IMG/VR virus record: IMGVR_UViG_3300036859_000306
Location: 1-32,641 of that record
Reading direction: 5' to 3' (one strand)
DNA: 32,641 nt
Source of the DNA: a virus
Position numbers and translations under genes: made by a program
Shown here: positions 4,114-32,452 of the stretch, piece by piece
How positions within the stretch are numbered: position 1 is the stretch's first letter
How the letters are laid out: the number at the start of each line of letters is the position of its first letter
The notes under the pieces: generated by a model
What the model was told of the DNA's origin: nothing
Seen by the model: the letters and a program-made list of their open reading frames with translations, nothing else
Database searches by the model: none

Positions 4114-4598
4114 TCCTTCTCCTCGTCGGCTAGGGCGTTGCGGGCGATGGTCTTGAGCTCCAATAGCGCGCCGTCAGACTCATCGACCCATTCGACTGAC
4201 GCAATGCTCTTCAGCACCTCCCTCAGCCGCTCGACCTCGGCCCTCAACAGAGAGATGTCAATGGATTCTTGACCGGCCTGTCGGCGTGCTTTCCATTCCC
4301 CCAGCCTCTCAACCTCGGCTTCGGACTCAGCAATCTGATTCCAACGAGACAACGAGTCTTCGCGCTCTTCCTGCAACCGCTCGACCTTGCCACGAAGGGC
4401 ATGTACCTCGTGAGTGTCTTCGTTCATCCAGCCTGCAAGTTCCTCTTGTAGCCGCTCGACCTCGTCCTCTAGCTGGTTGAGGGCCTCCAGGATGGGTTCC
4501 GGTCCAAATCCAGGTGGTAGCCCAGTCTCAGGATGTACCAGTTTCCATTCGAAGACTCCAAACGCTTCCTTGACGAGCTTCTCGAAGTCGTCGTTCAT
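4110..4598 (-). CDS. Coiled-coil protein
   Basis: 162 residues from ATG 4598 (TGATG overlap with the WhiB gene; a TTG three bases upstream is also possible). Most of the chain is heptad repeats with recurring EVERLxEE units, the pattern of a long parallel coiled coil. The end ARNALADEEKE is shared with the downstream paralogue. No enzymatic motif. It may act as a scaffold or oligomeric adaptor; this is inference only. Confidence 0.7.
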   Translation of the reverse strand: MNDDFEKLVKEAFGVFEWKLVHPETGLPPGFGPEPILEALNQLEDEVERLQEELAGWMNEDTHEVHALRGKVERLQEEREDSLSRWNQIAESEAEVERLGEWKARRQAGQESIDISLLRAEVERLREVLKSIASVEWVDESDGALLELKTIARNALADEEKE

Positions 4599-4963
4599 CA
4601 AGCCACCTCTCTATTTACAAGACCGAGTCTCACAGCCTGCTCAAATACCTCATCGAGTAAGGCATCGATGTCCCTTCCCCGACGGCGCTCCGAAGCCATC
4701 GCGCCACCCCAGATGCCGTATTCTTCCTCGAATCCATACTCCAGGCACTTCCTACGTACCGGGCAGCGGGCACACAGGGCCTTGGCTTTGCGATCAGCCA
4801 GGGTGAGCCACTGGTTGCGGTTGTCTGAGTTGCGTTCAGGGAAGAACCAATCCATGCGGCCATGGCATAGGGCGTCCTTCTGCCAGGTGATGTCACCCCA
4901 GATGCGAGTGAATAGATGGTGCCTGTCCTTGTGTCCCCCGTCTTTGAATCCCTGGTCGCTCAT
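4598..4963 (-). CDS. whiB-like: WhiB-family iron-sulfur transcription factor
   Basis: 121 residues from ATG 4963, which overlaps the upstream stop (ATGA). Four cysteines at about 33, 64, 67 and 73 give the Cys-X30-Cys-X2-Cys-X5-Cys arrangement that binds a 4Fe-4S cluster in WhiB proteins. The turn GIWGG follows at 83-87, and a basic segment (SERRRGRD) comes next, as in the DNA-contacting tail of the family. WhiB proteins are confined to Actinobacteria and their phages, and act with the primary sigma factor. Phage copies can repress host whiB genes or exclude other phages. Here it sits in the early operon, so an early switch of host transcription is a fair inference. Confidence 0.93.
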   Translation of the reverse strand: MSDQGFKDGGHKDRHHLFTRIWGDITWQKDALCHGRMDWFFPERNSDNRNQWLTLADRKAKALCARCPVRRKCLEYGFEEEYGIWGGAMASERRRGRDIDALLDEVFEQAVRLGLVNREVA

Positions 4964-6184: not shown

Positions 6185-6336
6185 CCCCACTCCTCCGTGA
6201 GTGCTGTCGCCAGGGCGATCAACTCGGCATCGATACGGGGTGAGATGTCCTCGTGTTTCGAGAGCACCTCGATAAGGTGTTCGGTGGCAACCGTGTATTC
6301 ACGTACTGCCCATTCGAGTTCTTGGGCCTCATCCAC
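6181..6336 (-). CDS. Small acidic helical protein
   Basis: 51 residues. GTG start at 6336 within the end of the MT-A70 gene, stop overlapping the next ATG. The sequence (DEAQELEWAVREYTVATEHL...) is almost entirely helical and acidic. Operon position and both overlaps support translation. Function unknown. Confidence 0.6.
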   Translation of the reverse strand: MDEAQELEWAVREYTVATEHLIEVLSKHEDISPRIDAELIALATALTEEWG

Positions 6337-6892
6337 GCTTAGTCATCTCCACGTGCTCAAGGGCTTCATTGCCCCAGGTGTCCCAGCCGAGGCGGTTGCG
6401 ACGGGCGAATAGTTCGAGGTAGGGACCGGGGGAGACAGTTTCGACAAGGTCGAGGAATGCTTCGGGCTTGCGAGAGTGCTCTGAACGCGGCCACTGGAAC
6501 CATGTCGTATCTACTCGCAGACCTAGGGTACGGGTGCCCCGAGCATGAGAGCGCGGGCCTATACGTTGTGCCACGACTATGAACTCAGTCGTTGTAGCGA
6601 ACATCCCCCCGGGTCCCTTGCCGCGTGGGGGCTTACACCACGTCAACGTTTGGCGGGGAACTAGCGTCCAGGCGCGGACCACCGCGAAGGCATTTTCGAG
6701 ATACCGGCTGGTCGTCCAGAGGAAGACATAACCCTCGGGTTCAATCAACTCCTGCACAGGCAGAGCATGAATCTCAGCGAGCGTCATTGATGGATAGGGC
6801 AGGGCGCGGCGATTAGCCCGAGAGAGTCCCCAGCCCGGCCAACCCTCATCGTAGGGCCAGGGTGGATCAGCAACAATGGTGCGATACTTCAT
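6329..6892 (-). CDS. MT-A70 family N6-adenine DNA methyltransferase
   Basis: 187 residues from ATG 6892 (ATGA overlap), beginning MKYRTIVADPPWPYDEGW. The DPPW motif at residues 9-12 is the catalytic motif of the MT-A70 family, which transfers a methyl group from S-adenosylmethionine to adenine N6. The later block YVFLWTTSRYLENAF and the C-terminal YLELFARRNRLGWDTWGNE are also family features. No matching restriction nuclease lies beside it, so it probably works as an orphan methylase that protects phage DNA from host enzymes. Length is near the usual phage size. Confidence 0.92.
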   Translation of the reverse strand: MKYRTIVADPPWPYDEGWPGWGLSRANRRALPYPSMTLAEIHALPVQELIEPEGYVFLWTTSRYLENAFAVVRAWTLVPRQTLTWCKPPRGKGPGGMFATTTEFIVVAQRIGPRSHARGTRTLGLRVDTTWFQWPRSEHSRKPEAFLDLVETVSPGPYLELFARRNRLGWDTWGNEALEHVEMTKRG

Positions 6893-7398
6893 ATTTGGCC
6901 GTCGCATTCATTGATCGCCCTGAGCAAGGACTGTTCGGTCTTCGCAGTCGAGTGAATGCGCCATGAACGGGCGGACCTCAGCACCTTACGCAAGGCCTGG
7001 TACTCATCCAGTTTCACACCGACTATTCCCGCTGGCACTGGTTTGTTCGCCTGACGAAGTCGGTTCATCTCGGCGCGGAAGAACACGAGGTCAACACCGA
7101 GGAGTTCGTTCGCTCTTTTCAGCCGCTTGTTCTCTTCCTCGATGCGGCGGAGCCGCTCAACCTCGGCCCGTGCTTCGGTCAGCGCGAAGCCGCGCTCTTC
7201 GATAGTCGCCCGCAGCCTGGTTATCTGCTGTCGCGCATTGATATAGCCCCGAGATGTCTCCTCAAGCTTTCCTTGCAGGCGTGCAACTTCCTGTACCGTC
7301 ATGTCGGCATGCATTTCGGCTTCACCCCGTAGCCTTTCGACCTCGGCCTCGAGAGCAACGATGCGGTCGCGCTTCTTCTTATTTACCGTAGGCATCAT
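6889..7398 (-). CDS. Coiled-coil protein
   Basis: 169 residues. It starts MMPTVNKKKRDRIVALEAEVERL, then runs through about 100 residues of heptads (EEENKRLKRANELLG) and ends with a more globular helical part (KTEQSLLRAINE). It overlaps the gene before by 20 bases and the methylase start by ATGA. The EAEVERLR units recall the coiled-coil pair at 4598-3871. No catalytic motif; possible structural or DNA-organising role. Confidence 0.68.
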   Translation of the reverse strand: MMPTVNKKKRDRIVALEAEVERLRGEAEMHADMTVQEVARLQGKLEETSRGYINARQQITRLRATIEERGFALTEARAEVERLRRIEEENKRLKRANELLGVDLVFFRAEMNRLRQANKPVPAGIVGVKLDEYQALRKVLRSARSWRIHSTAKTEQSLLRAINECDGQI

Positions 7399-8279: not shown

Positions 8280-9043
8280 CAGTCGGCACTCACCGTCGGT
8301 TTGACCCAGGCTCCGCACTTCCGGCACGGGAATCGTTCCGCCTTGGCTTCTACATCTAGATCAAGTTGATGCGGAGGACACATTGCATCGGAGGGAGCAG
8401 GCCCTTCCCCTAAGCCCACTCCCCCCGACTGGTTATCCCCGGCGAGTGAGGGGTCTTCCAGCAGTGTGTTCCTGCTTCCCTCACCCTTGGTCGCGTGATC
8501 CCTCATCGCGGCCGGGGACGTTGATTCGGAGTCCACACCTGCTTGTGGAAGGGGGGATTGCTGTTCGCTTGATGTGGACCCCGAAGTCTTGCGTAGCCAG
8601 GCGTAGAAACCCTCGGCCCATACGTACACCTCGTCGCCGCTAGGCCGGAGCGTGACCGCCTGCATCAGTGCGGTCCTTCGGTCCATCCTTTCCTGGATGA
8701 ACTGGTCATGCTCCGGGGGACCAGGGCTGCCGTTGCGAGCGGCACTTCTAGGAGCTACCCGGCCTGAATCCCCCGGAACGAATGGCGCTGGCTGGTACTC
8801 GCCGAATGCCTTGATCTTCCACTTGGTTCCGCCGTGCTTGTTCGTCCCTGATTCCTCAAGGGTGAACTCAATGGGCTTGTTCAGGGCCTCGGTCAACAGG
8901 CCGTGGACTTCGACGGCGGTATCGATGTTCTTCTTCCCGATGTATGCTGTGTCCTTATCGGCGAAGGCCACGTTGATATAGCGCACCTGGCGATCGGTGG
9001 GCTCACCGATGTCCGAAACCCAGGTGATGGTTTTCGAAGTCAA
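8279..9043 (-). CDS. Putative DNA-binding protein with C-terminal zinc ribbon
   Basis: 254 residues from TTG 9043, which overlaps the upstream stop as TTGA; an ATG at 9094 would run into the HNH gene. Residues 1-85 have a beta-rich, conserved look (SKTITWVSDIGEP, VRYINVAFADKD, GTKWKIKAFGEY) that resembles small phage OB-fold or ssDNA-binding proteins, though I cannot prove this. A long Ser/Gly/Pro-rich low-complexity middle follows. The end (EAKAERFPCRKCGAWVKP) is a short CxxC zinc ribbon. Its early-operon place beside HNH and methylase genes fits DNA metabolism. Confidence 0.55.
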   Translation of the reverse strand: MTSKTITWVSDIGEPTDRQVRYINVAFADKDTAYIGKKNIDTAVEVHGLLTEALNKPIEFTLEESGTNKHGGTKWKIKAFGEYQPAPFVPGDSGRVAPRSAARNGSPGPPEHDQFIQERMDRRTALMQAVTLRPSGDEVYVWAEGFYAWLRKTSGSTSSEQQSPLPQAGVDSESTSPAAMRDHATKGEGSRNTLLEDPSLAGDNQSGGVGLGEGPAPSDAMCPPHQLDLDVEAKAERFPCRKCGAWVKPTVSAD

Positions 9044-9411
9044 GCGCCCGTCCCTTTCCAGCGGCGATTCTTGGCAGCGGCATTCGTCTCCCAACGGCCC
9101 GTGTCAAGGAACCGCCGAATTTGGTTGCGCCATCGCTTCATCTCGGCGCCGCGGCGCCCGTTCTCCGCATTGCTGCAGATATCTAGGTGGTCGGGGTTGA
9201 TACACCAGCGGTTCTCACACAGATGATCCAGTGCCTCGCGCCGCGACAGCAGCCGACCGAGAGAGTTCTCTTTCATCATCCGGTGCACCAGGCGCGGACC
9301 GTAGGTGGCATAGCCGTTGTCGTTGCGACGCCCATCCCATGCCCAGCAACCGGCCGAACGCTTGATTCGTTCGGCGGGCAGGTCTACGAGGGTGATGGTC
9401 TTGGTAGTCAA
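9040..9411 (-). CDS. HNH homing-type endonuclease
   Basis: 123 residues from TTG 9411, overlapping the preceding stop (TTGA). The core LDHLCENRWCINPDHLDI carries the H, C and N/H residues of the HNH_3 subfamily, preceded by GCWAWDGRRNDNGYA, the usual leading strand, and followed by NAENGRRG. Such proteins nick or cut DNA using one metal ion, and are often free-standing homing enzymes. The N-terminal peptide LTTKTIT closely matches that of the downstream gene (LTSKTIT), which suggests insertion next to, or copying of, that start region. Confidence 0.88.
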   Translation of the reverse strand: MTTKTITLVDLPAERIKRSAGCWAWDGRRNDNGYATYGPRLVHRMMKENSLGRLLSRREALDHLCENRWCINPDHLDICSNAENGRRGAEMKRWRNQIRRFLDTGRWETNAAAKNRRWKGTGA

Positions 9412-9614
9412 TGGATGTGACCGCTCTTGGTGACGGTCCAGACGAGCCCCTGTACGCGGTCCTCTACCACGAAGTCCTCGCCACGCTTGCCAGCGAGCCA
9501 TCCGGCAGTCGCGAAGGCTGTACGATCGCTATAGCGGCGACAAAGGCAGTTAGTAATCCGCCCCTCCCGATGCCACTCCCACTTCTTGGGGTGCCAGATT
9601 CGATACAAGGTCAT
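9408..9614 (-). CDS. Hypothetical small protein
   Basis: 68 residues. ATGA overlap upstream and TTGA overlap downstream. It opens MTLYRIWHPKKWEWHREGRI and then has a cysteine pair (CLCRRYSDR) and a Gly/Lys-rich end. The general layout, short basic-aromatic strands, resembles the gene at 10430-10272. Function unknown. Confidence 0.65.
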   Translation of the reverse strand: MTLYRIWHPKKWEWHREGRITNCLCRRYSDRTAFATAGWLAGKRGEDFVVEDRVQGLVWTVTKSGHIH

Positions 9615-25744: not shown

Positions 25745-27040
25745 TTACGTGATGCGGATGCCGGACAGGCCCACCGGGCGCAACAGGTGGGTAGCGAAGT
25801 ACCCGAAGATGTTGAGCTCGATGTTCGCCGGCCCCTGCTTCTCCTCGAACCGGAACTGAAGCAGCGGAGACTCCCAGACCCATGCATCCGAACGGTTCAG
25901 GATCATAATCTGCGAGTCACCGGCAGCAACTCCGGTGTTGGCCCATGCCGGAACGAACCGGAGCGAGTCAACCTGGTAGCCACCCATGGCGCTATTGCCC
26001 ACACCGAAGGCGTTCTGGCCATCGGTCCACGGGAACAACGGACGCTGGGTGGTATCCACTGCCTGAGCCAATCGCGCCGTAGCACCCTGACCCATGAGTG
26101 CGATCGTCGGCGCTGCGAAACGCGCGAACGGGTAATCCGCGAGGGCCTTGCGGATCGCCTTCACCAGGGTCTGGTTGTCCGTACCACCAGCCGTGGTCAC
26201 GGCCTGTGCACCCGAAGGAACGAACCCGGCGGTGATCGTGCCACCGGCACCGTTCGAACCGTTCAGGAGGGTGTAGACCTTGACCTCAGTCTGGCGGTTG
26301 TAGGACTCCCGCATTGCCGCGAGCGCGATCTGGTCAATCGCCGGGTTCGAGGCGTCCACGATCTCACGGGTCAGAACCAACCGACCCGAGATCGCCTGCG
26401 GGGTGACCGTCTTAGTACCGAACGCCAGCGAACCATCAGAGGGGTTCGTACCCTCCACGTGGTCCGCCGAGCCGGTAGTAACCGACGTGAACGTCGGGAC
26501 CGTGAACGGCGTGGCGTTTGCGAGCGTTCCCTGGGAGACAGCCGCCACGAACGGCCGCTCCTGCTGAAGCTGCGGCACGTAGAGCTCGGGTCGGTATCCC
26601 GGTGGGATGATCTGCGATGCGGTCGTGGTGGTCTGCGGTGCGAAGCTGAGGAAGTTCTGGTTTACCAGCGTCGCCACTTCCTCGGTCTGCCTGCGGTACT
26701 TGCGCAACCGCTCAATCGCATCATCTTCCCTCTGCGATGCGGCATACCAGGCGTCACGCACCATCGAGTGACCCGTACCGTCGAAACGGTAGACGGGCTC
26801 CTCGCGGGTGACCGTGTACCTGGCTGCCTTCACCGAACCACGCTGGGGGTCGCCGATATTCTCGAGGGCCGTCTTCACGCCCTCTGAAATCGACTCGCCC
26901 ACAGACTGAGCCATCTCGGTATTGAGCTTCTGCTGAGCCTCGGTAACCTTGCTCGCGAGGCGAGCCATCGCCGTCTCGAACGCGGTCGCCTCTTCGGCGT
27001 CCAGCTTGACTTCCTCTTTCACTTCCTCTTTCTGATCCAT
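25745..27040 (-). CDS. Internal start: major capsid protein alone
   Basis: ATG 27040, within the fusion frame, lies 5 bases behind AAAAGGAG (27053-27046) and begins MDQKEEVKEEV. It would give a 431-residue scaffold-plus-capsid product beside the protease fusion, allowing many capsid subunits per protease. This is read from the ribosome site; a protein test would settle it. Confidence 0.62.
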   Translation of the reverse strand: MDQKEEVKEEVKLDAEEATAFETAMARLASKVTEAQQKLNTEMAQSVGESISEGVKTALENIGDPQRGSVKAARYTVTREEPVYRFDGTGHSMVRDAWYAASQREDDAIERLRKYRRQTEEVATLVNQNFLSFAPQTTTTASQIIPPGYRPELYVPQLQQERPFVAAVSQGTLANATPFTVPTFTSVTTGSADHVEGTNPSDGSLAFGTKTVTPQAISGRLVLTREIVDASNPAIDQIALAAMRESYNRQTEVKVYTLLNGSNGAGGTITAGFVPSGAQAVTTAGGTDNQTLVKAIRKALADYPFARFAAPTIALMGQGATARLAQAVDTTQRPLFPWTDGQNAFGVGNSAMGGYQVDSLRFVPAWANTGVAAGDSQIMILNRSDAWVWESPLLQFRFEEKQGPANIELNIFGYFATHLLRPVGLSGIRIT

Positions 27041-27673
27041 CTCCACTCCTTTTCGAGTCGCCGCAACGCGATCGACCCGCGCATCATCGAATGCCGGGAA
27101 GCCCGTAAGAGCCACCCCGGCGAGCCTTCCGCTTTGAACTAGGCGCACGTCCTCGTCTTCGGGATCGGGCATCCAGCCGTCTTCGTCATCGAAGTCGACC
27201 TCGATGCTGAATCCATCGAGAACACGGTCCTCGGCCATGGAGAGCGCCTTATCCCCCTCTGGCCCACGGGCGACCTTGAATGTGCCGTCCAGACCCGCTG
27301 CCTTGTTCTGCAACCGGGTGGCATAGGCAACCGCCTCTTTGTGATCGTGGCTAAGGTTGAGCTTGATCCGGCTCACGTCTGACCAGCGCAGCGACCCCTC
27401 GCGGAACCGCCACTTTGCGAACCCGGATTTCGCCACCTTGCCCCACGGCACAAGGAGACCGGAGATCGTCCGTCTCTCGGGATTGACTCGAAAGCTTGCT
27501 GCTACTTCAGGCGCATCGAACGTGAGCCCCTCGGCGGCTTCGTTCTCATTCGCATATAGGGCACGCATATGGGCCTGCGCCTCGGCCTCTGTGTCATGAC
27601 AACCCTCATTCGAATTGTCGGCATCTTTGATGACGCAGAACTCTTCACCGCGATGTTCGATATGCCAGGGGAT
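25745..27673 (-). CDS. Prohead protease-major capsid fusion, ATC start proposed
   Basis: 642 residues if begun at ATC 27673. The first ATG is at 27568, but the 35 codons before it encode PWHIEHRGEEFCVIKDADN and GCHDTEAEAQAH, a conserved N-terminal domain of actinophage head proteins, and are open back to the portal stop. AAGGAGG (27688-27682) stands 8 bases before the ATC. The protease part shows LSHDH (H109) and GFSIEV (S156), the HK97/U35-like His and Ser. After a Glu/Lys-rich linker comes the HK97-fold capsid: IIPPGYRPELYVPQLQQE, GRLVLTREIVDAS, and the end ELNIFGYFATHLLRPVG. The delta/scaffold region is about residues 211-290. Confidence 0.85.
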   Translation of the reverse strand: MPWHIEHRGEEFCVIKDADNSNEGCHDTEAEAQAHMRALYANENEAAEGLTFDAPEVAASFRVNPERRTISGLLVPWGKVAKSGFAKWRFREGSLRWSDVSRIKLNLSHDHKEAVAYATRLQNKAAGLDGTFKVARGPEGDKALSMAEDRVLDGFSIEVDFDDEDGWMPDPEDEDVRLVQSGRLAGVALTGFPAFDDARVDRVAATRKGVEMDQKEEVKEEVKLDAEEATAFETAMARLASKVTEAQQKLNTEMAQSVGESISEGVKTALENIGDPQRGSVKAARYTVTREEPVYRFDGTGHSMVRDAWYAASQREDDAIERLRKYRRQTEEVATLVNQNFLSFAPQTTTTASQIIPPGYRPELYVPQLQQERPFVAAVSQGTLANATPFTVPTFTSVTTGSADHVEGTNPSDGSLAFGTKTVTPQAISGRLVLTREIVDASNPAIDQIALAAMRESYNRQTEVKVYTLLNGSNGAGGTITAGFVPSGAQAVTTAGGTDNQTLVKAIRKALADYPFARFAAPTIALMGQGATARLAQAVDTTQRPLFPWTDGQNAFGVGNSAMGGYQVDSLRFVPAWANTGVAAGDSQIMILNRSDAWVWESPLLQFRFEEKQGPANIELNIFGYFATHLLRPVGLSGIRIT

Positions 27674-27688
27674 AGGTCATCCCTCCTT
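27671..27688 (-). promoter_or_regulatory. Shine-Dalgarno and ATC codon of the protease-capsid gene
   Basis: AAGGAGG (27688-27682), spacer GATGACCT that includes the portal stop TGA, then ATC (27673-27671). An ATG at 27680 is too close to the site and opens an 11-codon frame only. Confidence 0.6.
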
Positions 27689-28849
27689 CGTCTGGGGCTC
27701 CATTTGAGGCAGGGTTTCCTGTACCGGCTCTGGCTTAGGCAGAGCCGACTTCGGGATGTCGGGGCGGTCCTCGAGCTCCCGGATCTCCGATAGCGTGTAG
27801 GCCCCAACCGGAACGCCGATCTGGTAGGACTCCATGCGAGCCTTCGTGTCAGCCCGCAGGAAGGCATCCAGGTTTACCTTGGCCTCATAGCCCCGAGGTA
27901 GGACATCTCTCATCGAGAGTCGTTGCTCCACCGCAGACATGTAGGCCGTCAGGGTGAAGTCCAGCAGGTCCCTTCGCCGTTGCTCACTGTTCTGATAGGT
28001 GCGGGAGGTCGTGGATACGCCGAGGTCTTCCGGGTCGATGCCCGCCGCTCGTGCGATCTCCAGCACCGCATGTTGGCGCTGGTCCGCTAGCTGGATTTGT
28101 TCGGCGTTGAACTGCAGCGTCTTCGCCTCGAGGGCCTGCCCCACATAGGCCCAGACCCGAGACCGCCTGGCGATCTCCCATTTGTCCAACATCTCCTGGA
28201 CAGCGTCTTCATCTTCGCGGACTCGCTCCCCATCACGGGGGGAGAGATAGCCCAGCGGTAGGGGCTCCGTCGCGTACATCGACGCCGTGGTGTCCAGGTT
28301 GAGGCATGTCCTGATCGCACGAGCTGCGTAGCGCAGTAGGGCTGGGTTCGGCGAATCGAATCGGATGACTTGCTCGTCGGGCACGGGTATGCCATCAATG
28401 AAGACCTGGAATGGGCCGAAGGCGCGGTGGCCGTTCAGCGTCGGCAGGTCTACCCCCGATACATGGACACGATCAACGTTGATGTGCTCGGCGAACGTGG
28501 GGTAGCCATGCCAGCCAATCTCGAGCACTCGCCACCAGGAGATGCCCTCGAATAGGAGGTCTTCATATGTTTGGGAGAATGTGACGACGTTTGGGATGTT
28601 TGGGTCGATCTGTTCCAACAGTCTCGTCGGGGTGGCAATCCTGCGTTCCTTGTCCCGGATATGAACCGGCAGACTGGACAATGTCCCGGCTATTAGATTT
28701 CGAGATCGTAAGACAGCCGGCACCTGAAGCGCCTCAGCGCGTGAGATACGAGCAGCGATAGAGCCGCCACCCGTCATCGCCTCGGTCATCTCGGCCGGGA
28801 TGGAGATTTCGAACTGTGCAGCCGGCTTATCGCGCTTGAACCAGGCCAT
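27677..28849 (-). CDS. Portal protein (HK97 type)
   Basis: 390 residues starting just after the TerL stop. RISRAEALQVPAVLRSRNLI, with LSSLPVHIRD, is the HK97-portal N-terminal pattern; later PDEQVIRFDSPNP and YMSAVEQRLSMRDVLPRG occur at their usual places. The portal dodecamer forms the DNA gate. Length is near family size. The downstream protease-capsid ORF is in the same frame, separated by one TGA. Confidence 0.92.
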   Translation of the reverse strand: MAWFKRDKPAAQFEISIPAEMTEAMTGGGSIAARISRAEALQVPAVLRSRNLIAGTLSSLPVHIRDKERRIATPTRLLEQIDPNIPNVVTFSQTYEDLLFEGISWWRVLEIGWHGYPTFAEHINVDRVHVSGVDLPTLNGHRAFGPFQVFIDGIPVPDEQVIRFDSPNPALLRYAARAIRTCLNLDTTASMYATEPLPLGYLSPRDGERVREDEDAVQEMLDKWEIARRSRVWAYVGQALEAKTLQFNAEQIQLADQRQHAVLEIARAAGIDPEDLGVSTTSRTYQNSEQRRRDLLDFTLTAYMSAVEQRLSMRDVLPRGYEAKVNLDAFLRADTKARMESYQIGVPVGAYTLSEIRELEDRPDIPKSALPKPEPVQETLPQMEPQTKEG

Positions 28850-30289
28850 CTACCCAACACCCGCCGGCAAGAGAACGAGCGGGCGGGGGGACCATTGCGA
28901 AGCCTGATCGGCAGCGAGGATGACTGCCACGAGACCCTGCACTTCCTTCGTCGGTAGGAGATATGAGCCCGTGGGAGCCTCCTTGACCCTGCCTGAGAGA
29001 ACCTGTTTGCGGAGGACCGGGTCGCCGTCGTGAATTAGGCGATGAGATGCGACGAGCGTTCGGAAAGTCGAGGTAGCCTCCATGAGACGCATCGGGGATT
29101 GGGCCAGGTCTTCCATCGGTAGGCCGTGGTCCCGCATCACGTCCACACCGATCCCGAACTGCGGGGCATAGCCGTAGATGTTCCGAACCTTGTAGAGCTC
29201 ATCCAGCTGCCTGAGCCTGAACTCAAGCCCAGGGAAGTCGTAGGGCAGCATCTCGCATGCCACCGCCACCCGGTCTTCGGATTTCGGGGCAGCGATACCG
29301 ACGCCACATCCCCCGCCCTGGGTCACGCGCACGGCGAGGAAGACCTCGTCTCCAGACTCGATGCCACCGATGTCTACTGCGAGCGCATCCCACACCGCCG
29401 CATCGATCCAGGAATCCAGCCTGGATGGCCTGCCCAACACGAAACGGTTCCAATGGCCGAGATTCCACGAGGGCGAGGACCGCTTACGTTCCAGAGTCGC
29501 CATGTCGATCATCTTGAGCGGGTTGGCCTCAAGTGCTAGGTCAAGGTCTTCGGGGTCACCGTCATCCGGCATGGCGTACTCGTGGAGTACGGCCGTCTTC
29601 GAGGCTGCCCGCGTGAAGCACCGTCCCTTGTGCGTGGTTTCGGTGGCCTCATCCCGCATCGCCTTGCGGACTTCCTCGAACTCGCCCTCGGGCTCGCCGG
29701 CCGTACTGATGGCAATGACTTGCCCGCCACGTTTCTCGATCTTGCCCCGCCAGGTCCGGTAAAGCCTGAGATCGCGATGACGGTGGAGCTCCTCGAGCAC
29801 CGCCAGCGTGGGCTTGACCCCATCCCCGGTGCGGTCGTCGGCTGCGTAGATCTGGATGCGGGACTGATTCTCCCGATGGACTATCCGCCGGTAGCCGTCA
29901 TAGGGCCGGAACGTCTTCTCAAGTCCTGGAGATCGGAGCACGAAGTCGGCAGATGCCCGGTAGAGCAGTTCGGCTTGGTCCCTTGAGGATGCCGCGACCG
30001 TGACGTTGGCCCAGGGGGCGAACTCCGCGTGGTAAAGAACGAGCCCGCCGACGAGGGTAGTCTTGGCGTTCCCCTCAGGCACGACCAGCCAGCACTCCGA
30101 GTACCCGTGGAACACGTCGGTGAGGAAGTCCAGCTGGAACCCCTCGACCACCCAGGGCTCTCCGGAGTCCAGGATCAGGTCGTGAGCCCACGCTTTGTAG
30201 TGCTCAGGCGTGAAGGGGGGATTTTTTTCGCGAGGGCGTCGGCTTTGAGTCTTGCTACGCGACCGGAAAAAATCGTCTTCACTTTTCAT
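28850..30289 (-). CDS. terL: Terminase large subunit with apparently inactive nuclease site
   Basis: 479 residues, ATGA overlap with the HNH gene. ATPase part: Walker A VPEGNAKTTL (about 70-79), Walker B-like LAVLEEL (E in place of the usual D), and coupling motif ISTAG (194-198). C-terminal nuclease part: the usual GxD strand is FLAVRV, the usual YDP is YAP (YGYAPQF), and the usual IDxxxA is VQGLVA. Other blocks of that domain (QSPMRLMEAT, RLIHDGDPVL) align well, so the domain is present but its three metal-binding acids seem lost. Packs DNA into the prohead; cutting may need a partner such as the adjacent HNH protein. Confidence 0.9.
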   Translation of the reverse strand: MKSEDDFFRSRSKTQSRRPREKNPPFTPEHYKAWAHDLILDSGEPWVVEGFQLDFLTDVFHGYSECWLVVPEGNAKTTLVGGLVLYHAEFAPWANVTVAASSRDQAELLYRASADFVLRSPGLEKTFRPYDGYRRIVHRENQSRIQIYAADDRTGDGVKPTLAVLEELHRHRDLRLYRTWRGKIEKRGGQVIAISTAGEPEGEFEEVRKAMRDEATETTHKGRCFTRAASKTAVLHEYAMPDDGDPEDLDLALEANPLKMIDMATLERKRSSPSWNLGHWNRFVLGRPSRLDSWIDAAVWDALAVDIGGIESGDEVFLAVRVTQGGGCGVGIAAPKSEDRVAVACEMLPYDFPGLEFRLRQLDELYKVRNIYGYAPQFGIGVDVMRDHGLPMEDLAQSPMRLMEATSTFRTLVASHRLIHDGDPVLRKQVLSGRVKEAPTGSYLLPTKEVQGLVAVILAADQASQWSPRPLVLLPAGVG

Positions 30290-30570
30290 TTTCGTTTTCG
30301 ATTTCGGTATTCATTTCCACGTTGACGGTTGTGCCTACGGCATAGAGGACGTAGGTTCTCGATCGTGCTCTCTCCACCCGCATCTCTAGGCACGATGTGG
30401 TCTGCCTCTAGTGGCCCATCACACCCACCTAGATCAGCCATCTCACAGACCGCATCCATAGTGACCACCTTGGCTAGTCTCTGGTGCTGGGAGGAGTACC
30501 TACCGGGGGGTGGGTTGGGGCTGTATCCCCTACCGAACTGACGTCGCTTGGCCTTAGGCTGCGATGTCAT
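30286..30570 (-). CDS. HNH endonuclease beside TerL
   Basis: 94 residues, overlapping the gene before by 17 bases and TerL by ATGA. LEADHIVPRDAGG, NLRPLCRRHN and a leading CEMADLGGC give the HNH site with a zinc pair. HNH proteins beside the terminase are required for cos cutting and packaging in HK97-like phages. The N-terminal 25 residues are basic and Pro-rich. No TerS gene is recognisable nearby. Confidence 0.9.
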   Translation of the reverse strand: MTSQPKAKRRQFGRGYSPNPPPGRYSSQHQRLAKVVTMDAVCEMADLGGCDGPLEADHIVPRDAGGESTIENLRPLCRRHNRQRGNEYRNRKRK

Positions 30571-31353: not shown

Positions 31354-31544
31354 TACTCCTCCTCGTTCACTGCGAGCTTGAGCTCGATCGGTTTGGGTTG
31401 GGCTACGGCATCCTGGTGATCGTCCCAGTGCTCGACGTGGTAGCCAGCCCGCGTACCGTCGTCCTCGTTGATGACGGGCTTCTTAGTGGCCTTGCCACGA
31501 CGTAGGGAGACCCCGACGTTCTTCTCCTGCCACTTAGTCTGCAT
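31353..31544 (-). CDS. Small charged protein
   Basis: 63 residues, TGATG overlap with the repeat protein and TAATG with the next gene. VSLRRGKATKKPVINEDDG and EHWDDHQDAVAQPK give a polar chain without a hydrophobic core pattern. Unknown role. Confidence 0.65.
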   Translation of the reverse strand: MQTKWQEKNVGVSLRRGKATKKPVINEDDGTRAGYHVEHWDDHQDAVAQPKPIELKLAVNEEE

Positions 31545-32452
31545 CAGACCTCCACCAGATCGTTCTTGCCTGCCCCAATCGGAACCGCTCGGGGGGCACC
31601 TGCGAGTTCCTCGGTGTCGTTGGCATCGCCCACCAGTGAGCGCCCGTAGGTCGGTCCCTTGACCGGTAGACCAGGAATGCCGCCGAAGACGAAGGGCGTC
31701 GGTATATCGGACAGAGCCGCGATGGTGGCCGGCACCATGACCGCTGCACCCCGAACCGATGGGGCGGGGACGCTAATCGATACCGTGATGGTTGTCGGGG
31801 CGGGCAGTGCCGTTGCCTGGATCGTTGGGGACTGTACGGCTGCGGTGACAGCCACCGTGGTAGCGATGACCGTTGCGTTGCCACCGACCAATACGGCCGG
31901 GGGGGGCACCGAGACGGCTACTGCGATGGTGCTCGGCGTAACGACCGCTGTTCCACGGATCGTCGGTGCGGGAACTGCTGCTAAGACGCCTACCGTTACG
32001 GGGGTCGGCCTGGCAGCACCCTGGATAGTTGAGGCCTGAACAGCCGCGGTGACTGCGATAGTGCTGGATGTGGTCCTAGCCCCAGCGAGTGGCGTCGGTG
32101 CTTGAACTGCCGCAGCAACCGCTACCGTGGCCGGCGTGGGCCTTGCTGCACCCTGAACAGTGGGAGTTTGAACCGCTGCTGCGACCGCTATCGTGGCCGG
32201 AGTTGGGGTGGCATCGGGGCTCTCAGCCAGGATCGTCGGTGCGGGGACAGCCGCTGCTACTGCGATGGTGCTCGGTATAGCGATGGCCGCCGCTAGAACC
32301 GTTACCGCCGGGACCGATACAGTTACGTCGATGGTCGCCGTGGTTGCGGTTGCGTCTTCGCCGGCAGCTTCGGCGGCGTGGCTGTAGAGGAACGGACCCC
32401 TAAGCGGTTCTTCCTCACCCTTGTGGTTTCGGCCTACCCCGGTCCTAGCCAT
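31544..32452 (-). CDS. Repeat protein with about nine 22-residue T/V/A/P repeats
   Basis: 302 residues, GGGAGGA ribosome site in the end of the partial gene. A 30-residue polar start is followed by a repeat of about 22 residues of the form PTPATVAVAAAVQAPTxxGA from about residue 36 to 235, then a C-terminal GIPGLPVKGPTYGRSL segment. Alternate T/V/A positions suggest stacked beta-strands. The same repeat ends the jelly-roll adhesin at the left side of the window, including 99 identical bases. Likely a fibre shaft or host-binding spike; repeats may allow length change by recombination. Confidence 0.72.
   Translation of the reverse strand: MARTGVGRNHKGEEEPLRGPFLYSHAAEAAGEDATATTATIDVTVSVPAVTVLAAAIAIPSTIAVAAAVPAPTILAESPDATPTPATIAVAAAVQTPTVQGAARPTPATVAVAAAVQAPTPLAGARTTSSTIAVTAAVQASTIQGAARPTPVTVGVLAAVPAPTIRGTAVVTPSTIAVAVSVPPPAVLVGGNATVIATTVAVTAAVQSPTIQATALPAPTTITVSISVPAPSVRGAAVMVPATIAALSDIPTPFVFGGIPGLPVKGPTYGRSLVGDANDTEELAGAPRAVPIGAGKNDLVEV
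31993..32091 (-). repeat. Internal copy of the window's left-end repeat
   Basis: Identical to bases 1-99. It lies in the middle of the 22-residue repeat array. See the entry at 1-99. Confidence 0.95.

Follow-up and report, generated by a model that had tools for sequence, protein, structure and literature searches.

The terL locus of the window

The stretch of DNA analysed here, referred to as the window, is the complete 32,641-nucleotide (nt) virus record IMGVR_UViG_3300036859_000306 of IMG/VR. It carries terL, which encodes a large terminase of the HK97 type, an upstream gene for a small HNH endonuclease, and a putative cohesive-end site (cos) where the two genes meet (Table 1). The two open reading frames (ORFs) overlap, as the first-pass annotation of this DNA had described; the overlap is 4 nt. 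The terL product matches the Pfam family TerL_ATPase (E value 1.8e-11) and PHROG 9 TerL (E 2.8e-49), and HK97 TerL (6z6d) is its top sequence match in the PDB. The Pfam nuclease family PF20441 TerL_nuclease is reached with an E value of 0.048 only, under the family cut-off. To judge from sequence comparison, the protein is a nuclease-dead derivative of the HK97-type TerL (PF03354/PF20441, PHROG 9).

The catalytic residues of HK97 TerL are D302, D388 and D471 (PMC9410871). These positions correspond to R321, Y374 and Q451 of the window protein, both against a profile of triad-intact relatives and when HK97 TerL is added to the family alignment. The second place falls on A375 instead of Y374 if the following proline is aligned; neither residue is acidic. 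Y374 results from anchoring on the nearest relatives, such as L025, which reads IFVDPRQFGI where the window reads IYGYAPQFGI. The first-pass annotation had proposed that all three acidic residues are replaced, and this stands, with its second position (A375) one residue off with respect to Y374; the HK97-like sequence blocks that it quoted are indeed present in the ORF. The sole acid adjoining any triad position is E449, two residues ahead of Q451, and a migrated metal site was rejected at the sequence level, no alternative acids being found close to the three positions. L001 and L002, which come from other metagenomes, carry the same three substitutions, so these are not due to chance.

The ATPase domain has both Walker motifs. 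Walker B reads LEEL, the Asp-to-Glu change already noticed in the first pass, and does so in most of the related terminases that lack the triad (see below). Walker A reads PEGNAKTT, and GNAKTT is also frequent among nuclease-intact relatives. Since these changes are common in relatives, including nuclease-intact ones in the case of the Walker A alanine, they are not taken as signs of a dead ATPase.

A clade of terminases without the triad

Scans of IMG/VR yielded about 100 relatives. Eighty-five non-redundant sequences were classified by their triad, the third positions being read by eye. The canonical D/D/D is found in 61 of them. Thirteen have R first, D second and a residue other than Asp third; R/Y/Q is found in three (the window, L001 and L002), and three more, the S-type, have S first, P second and no Asp third (L034, L043 and L045). 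The remainder are K/D/D (L044), H/V/A (L014) and three D/D/A sequences in which only the third Asp has become Ala (L007, L012 and L013). Thus, 19 TerLs lack both the first and the third Asp, and six of these lack all three.

In a tree built from an alignment without the first two triad columns, the 19 sequences (hereafter the lost group) sit on one side of a branch with a Shimodaira-Hasegawa-like approximate likelihood ratio (SH-aLRT) support of 99; L044 and the L007 group are placed next to them (SH-aLRT 86). This topology points to a probable early loss of the first Asp, in a single lineage, followed by loss of the second at two or more points of the tree. L014 is read as having lost all three separately, in a sister lineage; its close relatives there still have two. 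Scores in the last scan, which was aimed at the lost group, fall steeply once the known members have been passed, which suggests that, at the sensitivity of the scan, few members of the clade in IMG/VR are missing from the sample. The third Asp motif is kept in 21 of the 21 newly fetched loci that were checked, the first motif being read in the pattern-matched ones only.

The lost group consists of uncultured soil phages. Cultured phages offered no close relative, the best matches being 22-27% identical. A scan of genome contigs matched relatives in metagenome-assembled genomes (MAGs) of Solirubrobacterales and others. Together with a gene for a WhiB-like regulator in the window (4598-4963, minus strand), the Solirubrobacterales MAGs suggest an actinobacterial host.

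Could these terminases nevertheless cut DNA through a non-canonical site, made of the middle Asp or of acids of the E449 type ahead of the third position? The middle Asp is kept in 13 of the 19, and in many members an acid precedes the third position by two residues. However, every Asp of the triad is missing from the window, L001, L002 and the S-type members, the first position is R or S, and E449 has no acidic company near the triad positions of the window. Several acids would be required to form a two-metal site. We regard cutting by such a site as improbable.

The nuclease domain is kept

An AlphaFold2 model of the window TerL, built on 74 aligned sequences, reached a mean predicted local distance difference test score (pLDDT) of 92.8 and a predicted template modelling score (pTM) of 0.83. 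VIA-align ranked HK97 TerL (6z6d) first among its structural matches (Z 29.0), and Foldseek agreed. The C-terminal half alone superposes on the isolated terminase nuclease domain 5m1q with a Z of 16.4 and a root-mean-square deviation of 2.8 over 156 residues, and the model has an intact RNase H-like domain.

The ratio of nonsynonymous to synonymous substitution rates (dN/dS) in the nuclease domain is 0.079 between the window and L001 and 0.070 between the window and L002, rough figures since dS exceeds 1. In L002 (TerL at 3-1148) the ATPase part has diverged (dN/dS 0.36 against the window), whereas the nuclease domain is 87% identical in sequence to that of the window. The L002 protein is best explained as a domain swap. 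Because it joins a diverged ATPase part to a nearly unchanged nuclease domain, the dead domain appears to travel as a conserved module.

Residue loss by itself could suggest that terL is decaying, or that it belongs to a defective element. We find this hardly credible: the reading frame is open, selection is strongly purifying, the same state recurs in many metagenomes and the head genes are intact. The pseudogene reading was discarded on the dN/dS values and the replicate lineages. The predicted fold and the substitution ratios thus argue for a nuclease domain that is under strong purifying selection and structurally whole.

Cut genome ends at cos

Many contigs begin at the start of terL, at a constant distance from the box CGCGAGAAA. 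Seventeen contigs of the lost group have an end near terL (a set that includes L044, the K/D/D neighbour); ten of them have the box starting at nt 12-13 and four at nt 24-26. L039, with its copies L040 and L041, begins CCCAGCCGACATCGCGG, which by eye is in the same register although the search pattern missed it. Of 53 triad-intact contigs, 28 have the start of the box at nt 7. The main class of ends thus lies 11-12 nt short of the box in the lost group and 6 nt short of it in intact relatives. Only 6% of random 60-mers have the box in those registers. Comparing nt 7 with nt 12-13, the counts are 0 and 10 in the lost group and 28 and 1 in the intact group (Fisher p 1.7e-8), an association along the tree and not a set of independent events, the lost group being one clade. 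In L043 and L045, which have no Asp at any triad position, the contig end places the box at nt 13. L007, L013 and L014, contigs of the sister lineage, begin 12-13 nt ahead of a GCGCGCGCC motif.

The start of L033 falls at a point where a near-identical stretch in L032 continues uncut, and similar cut/uncut pairs exist among triad-intact relatives (L060/L063 and L076/L077). The best reading of contig ends in a fixed register is that linear virion DNA physically ends there. Both the lost and the intact groups also have ends lying about 8-14 nt further out; this second class would fit a 3' overhang of the HK97 kind. When G046 and the triad-intact L077 are compared by eye, a right-end overhang of about 12 nt is suggested; two exact-pattern scans for uncut or right-end partners matched the source contigs only. 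The left ends of L034 and L036 and the right end of L110 (S-type) do not fit the 12-nt register in a simple way. L034 starts GAGGAAG, and the right end of G017 has CTTCCTC.

These ends bear on whether a cut is needed at all. In phi29, gp16 has a vestigial nuclease in which the first-strand Asp has become Tyr (PMC7672431), and the present phages might likewise package preformed unit-length genomes, the nuclease having decayed. Against this, uncut joined forms (the window, L023, L029 and L032) occur alongside cut forms (L033), the ends lie at a constant distance from a cos box that nuclease-intact relatives have as well, and no inverted terminal repeats were seen at the ends by eye. Nor did Rfam find a phage RNA: no match to a packaging RNA (pRNA) was obtained at the gathering threshold in the window, where a diverged RNA could escape. 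Packaging without a cut is therefore very unlikely.

The HNH gene beside cos

The HNH protein of the window has its HNH residues intact (ADHIVP..ENLRPLCRRHN). An HNH ORF lies upstream of cos in all eight of the lost-group or sister lineages whose records cover that side. It adjoins cos in the window, L023/24, L027/29, L032 and the sister L012, and stands at the opposite end of the long linear contigs of L030 (G011), L040 (G021) and, weakly, L036 (G017); the far end of L035 is not a cos end and is uninformative. In the near-complete genomes L030/G011 and L040/G021, the HNH gene is the last before the right end and terL the first at the left, and T-tracts like that of the window occur near the right ends of G011 and G021. 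In L001, the closest relative of the window, cos is separated from terL by a gene for an endonuclease VII-type HNH protein (70-612).

Judged by motif, HNH ORFs occupy the same place in most triad-intact relatives. Therefore, the HNH-cos-terL layout is ancestral and the loss of the TerL nuclease derived. Presence of an HNH gene as a mark dividing the lost from the intact group was rejected, since it is frequent in both.

With a dead TerL nuclease, cos might also be cut by a host enzyme or by a second phage nuclease. The window does hold another HNH-type ORF (9040-9501, minus strand), with an HNH_3 domain and a homing-endonuclease zinc loop, and some cos-adjacent HNHs are degenerate (L023/24 and L036). 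Yet HNH_3 with such a loop looks like a homing enzyme, and of the nuclease genes only the adjacent HNH keeps its place at the cut site throughout the group. A different cutter is accordingly unlikely.

A proposed split of the terminase into motor and cutter

We lean, with modest confidence, towards a division of labour in which TerL provides the motor and a clamp and the HNH protein cuts cos. This is favoured by fixation of the loss in a clade, by conservation of the domain, by the precise cut ends and by the HNH gene at the cut site in every lost-group lineage whose records cover it. TerL would act only as the translocating ATPase of a cos-packaging terminase. Its C-terminal domain would be kept as a catalytically dead clamp, which may hold DNA, the portal or both. 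The HNH protein, encoded beside cos, would make a specific double-strand cut between its own gene and terL, presumably by nicking both strands, and the dead TerL domain might position the HNH protein or the DNA.

Several observations weigh against this proposal. In 13 of the 19 TerLs the middle Asp leaves partial metal binding possible. An HNH gene also stands beside intact TerLs, and so its presence is no proof of substitution. The HNH protein of L023/L024 reads DYIHP, with Tyr for the first His, and that of L036 is under the Pfam cut-off. The records of the window and of L001 are uncut at cos, so that cutting in the window lineage is deduced from relatives, and the ends were taken from assembled contigs, not from reads. 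The first-pass annotation had suggested that the HNH nuclease might have taken over cutting, giving a split motor-nuclease terminase. The comparative evidence points to such a split; cutting by the HNH protein is a prediction, and the protein did not arrive as a replacement, because it is already present in relatives with an intact TerL.

The shift of about 6 nt between end and box that marks the lost group is what a change of cutter might produce; a changed box spacing explains it equally. More tentatively, and with somewhat less than an even chance, the HNH protein alone may cut both strands throughout the clade, loss of the TerL nuclease having been accompanied by a move of the cut, relative to the box, of about 6 nt. 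If so, the move would mean that TerL sets the cut position of one strand in ordinary relatives.

Other features of the window

The prohead protease and the major capsid protein are encoded by a single ORF, an arrangement common to L001 and L002. No small terminase was recognised among the window ORFs scanned, which were part of all its ORFs; in L007, L012 and L013, cos and terL are separated by a small ORF, which may encode a terminase small subunit. A second TerL in the fetched sequences was looked for and dismissed, the profile search giving about one TerL ORF per locus. The window also encodes an MT-A70 methyltransferase (6329-6907, minus strand). A 174-bp repeat, 88% identical, lies near both record ends (1-174 and 31993-32166), and the ORF at 31544-32452 has repetitive sequence. 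With respect to cos, the record may be a circular permutation.

Table 1. Features of the packaging region of the window
Feature	Position	Strand	Remarks
terL, HK97-type large terminase with vestigial nuclease domain	28850..30289	-	479 aa; R321/Y374/Q451 replacing D/D/D
TerL C-terminal RNase H-like domain, about residues 289-479	28850..29425	-	Predicted fold intact, without canonical metal site
HNH endonuclease, 94 aa, proposed cos cutter	30286..30570	-	PF01844, E 1.1e-8
cos box TCGCGAAAAAAATCC, within annotated terL N-terminus	30219..30233	-	
Inferred cos cut, gene strand, 12 nt before CGCG	30244..30245	-	Homology with cut contig ends of relatives
T-tract, between HNH stop codon and inferred cut	30265..30277	-	
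Portal protein	27677..28849	-	PF04860, E 3.2e-36
Prohead protease-major capsid protein, one ORF	25745..27568	-	Pfam/PHROG scans of window ORFs

Relation to known packaging systems

The window resembles HK97 in the order of its head genes (terL-portal-protease-capsid), in its top structural match and in combining cos ends with an HNH protein. In HK97, the HNH protein gp74 promotes cos cleavage (PMC9410871), and a split between strands has been proposed, TerL cutting one and gp74 the other (PMC9410871, PMC11331095). However, HK97 TerL keeps its triad, which is gone here, and HK97 places a TerS gene between its cos and its terL, whereas in the window none was recognised among the ORFs scanned and terL starts at cos. 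The closest cultured relatives are TerLs of the Streptomyces phage TG1/phiC31 type (22-25% identity); unlike the window protein, they have an intact D/D/D (in TG1, GFD, ADP and KID).

The likeness to phi29 gp16 lies in a TerL homologue whose nuclease-derived domain lacks the catalytic acids. Phi29, however, packages unit-length, protein-capped genomes without a cut, whereas both joined and cut cos forms are found here, and its domain has lost secondary-structure elements, whereas the full RNase H-like fold is predicted for the window. The vestigial nuclease of the phi29 type has been explained by unit-length genomes, and the terminase C-terminal domain was stated to be a functional nuclease in all phages that are not phi29-like (PMC7672431). 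In the open-access literature searched, vestigial-nuclease proteins of the TerL type were found for the phi29 type only, and a clade of cos phages with a dead TerL and persisting cut ends was not found.

The lost clade would be an exception to that statement on functional nuclease domains. The part played by HNH proteins in terminase cutting is unsettled, and naturally nuclease-dead TerLs in phages with cos ends take TerL out of the equation. The ends of metagenome contigs can show phage cut sites at base resolution, and the TerL/HNH pair of the lost clade offers a direct test of which enzyme does the cutting when phage DNA is packaged.
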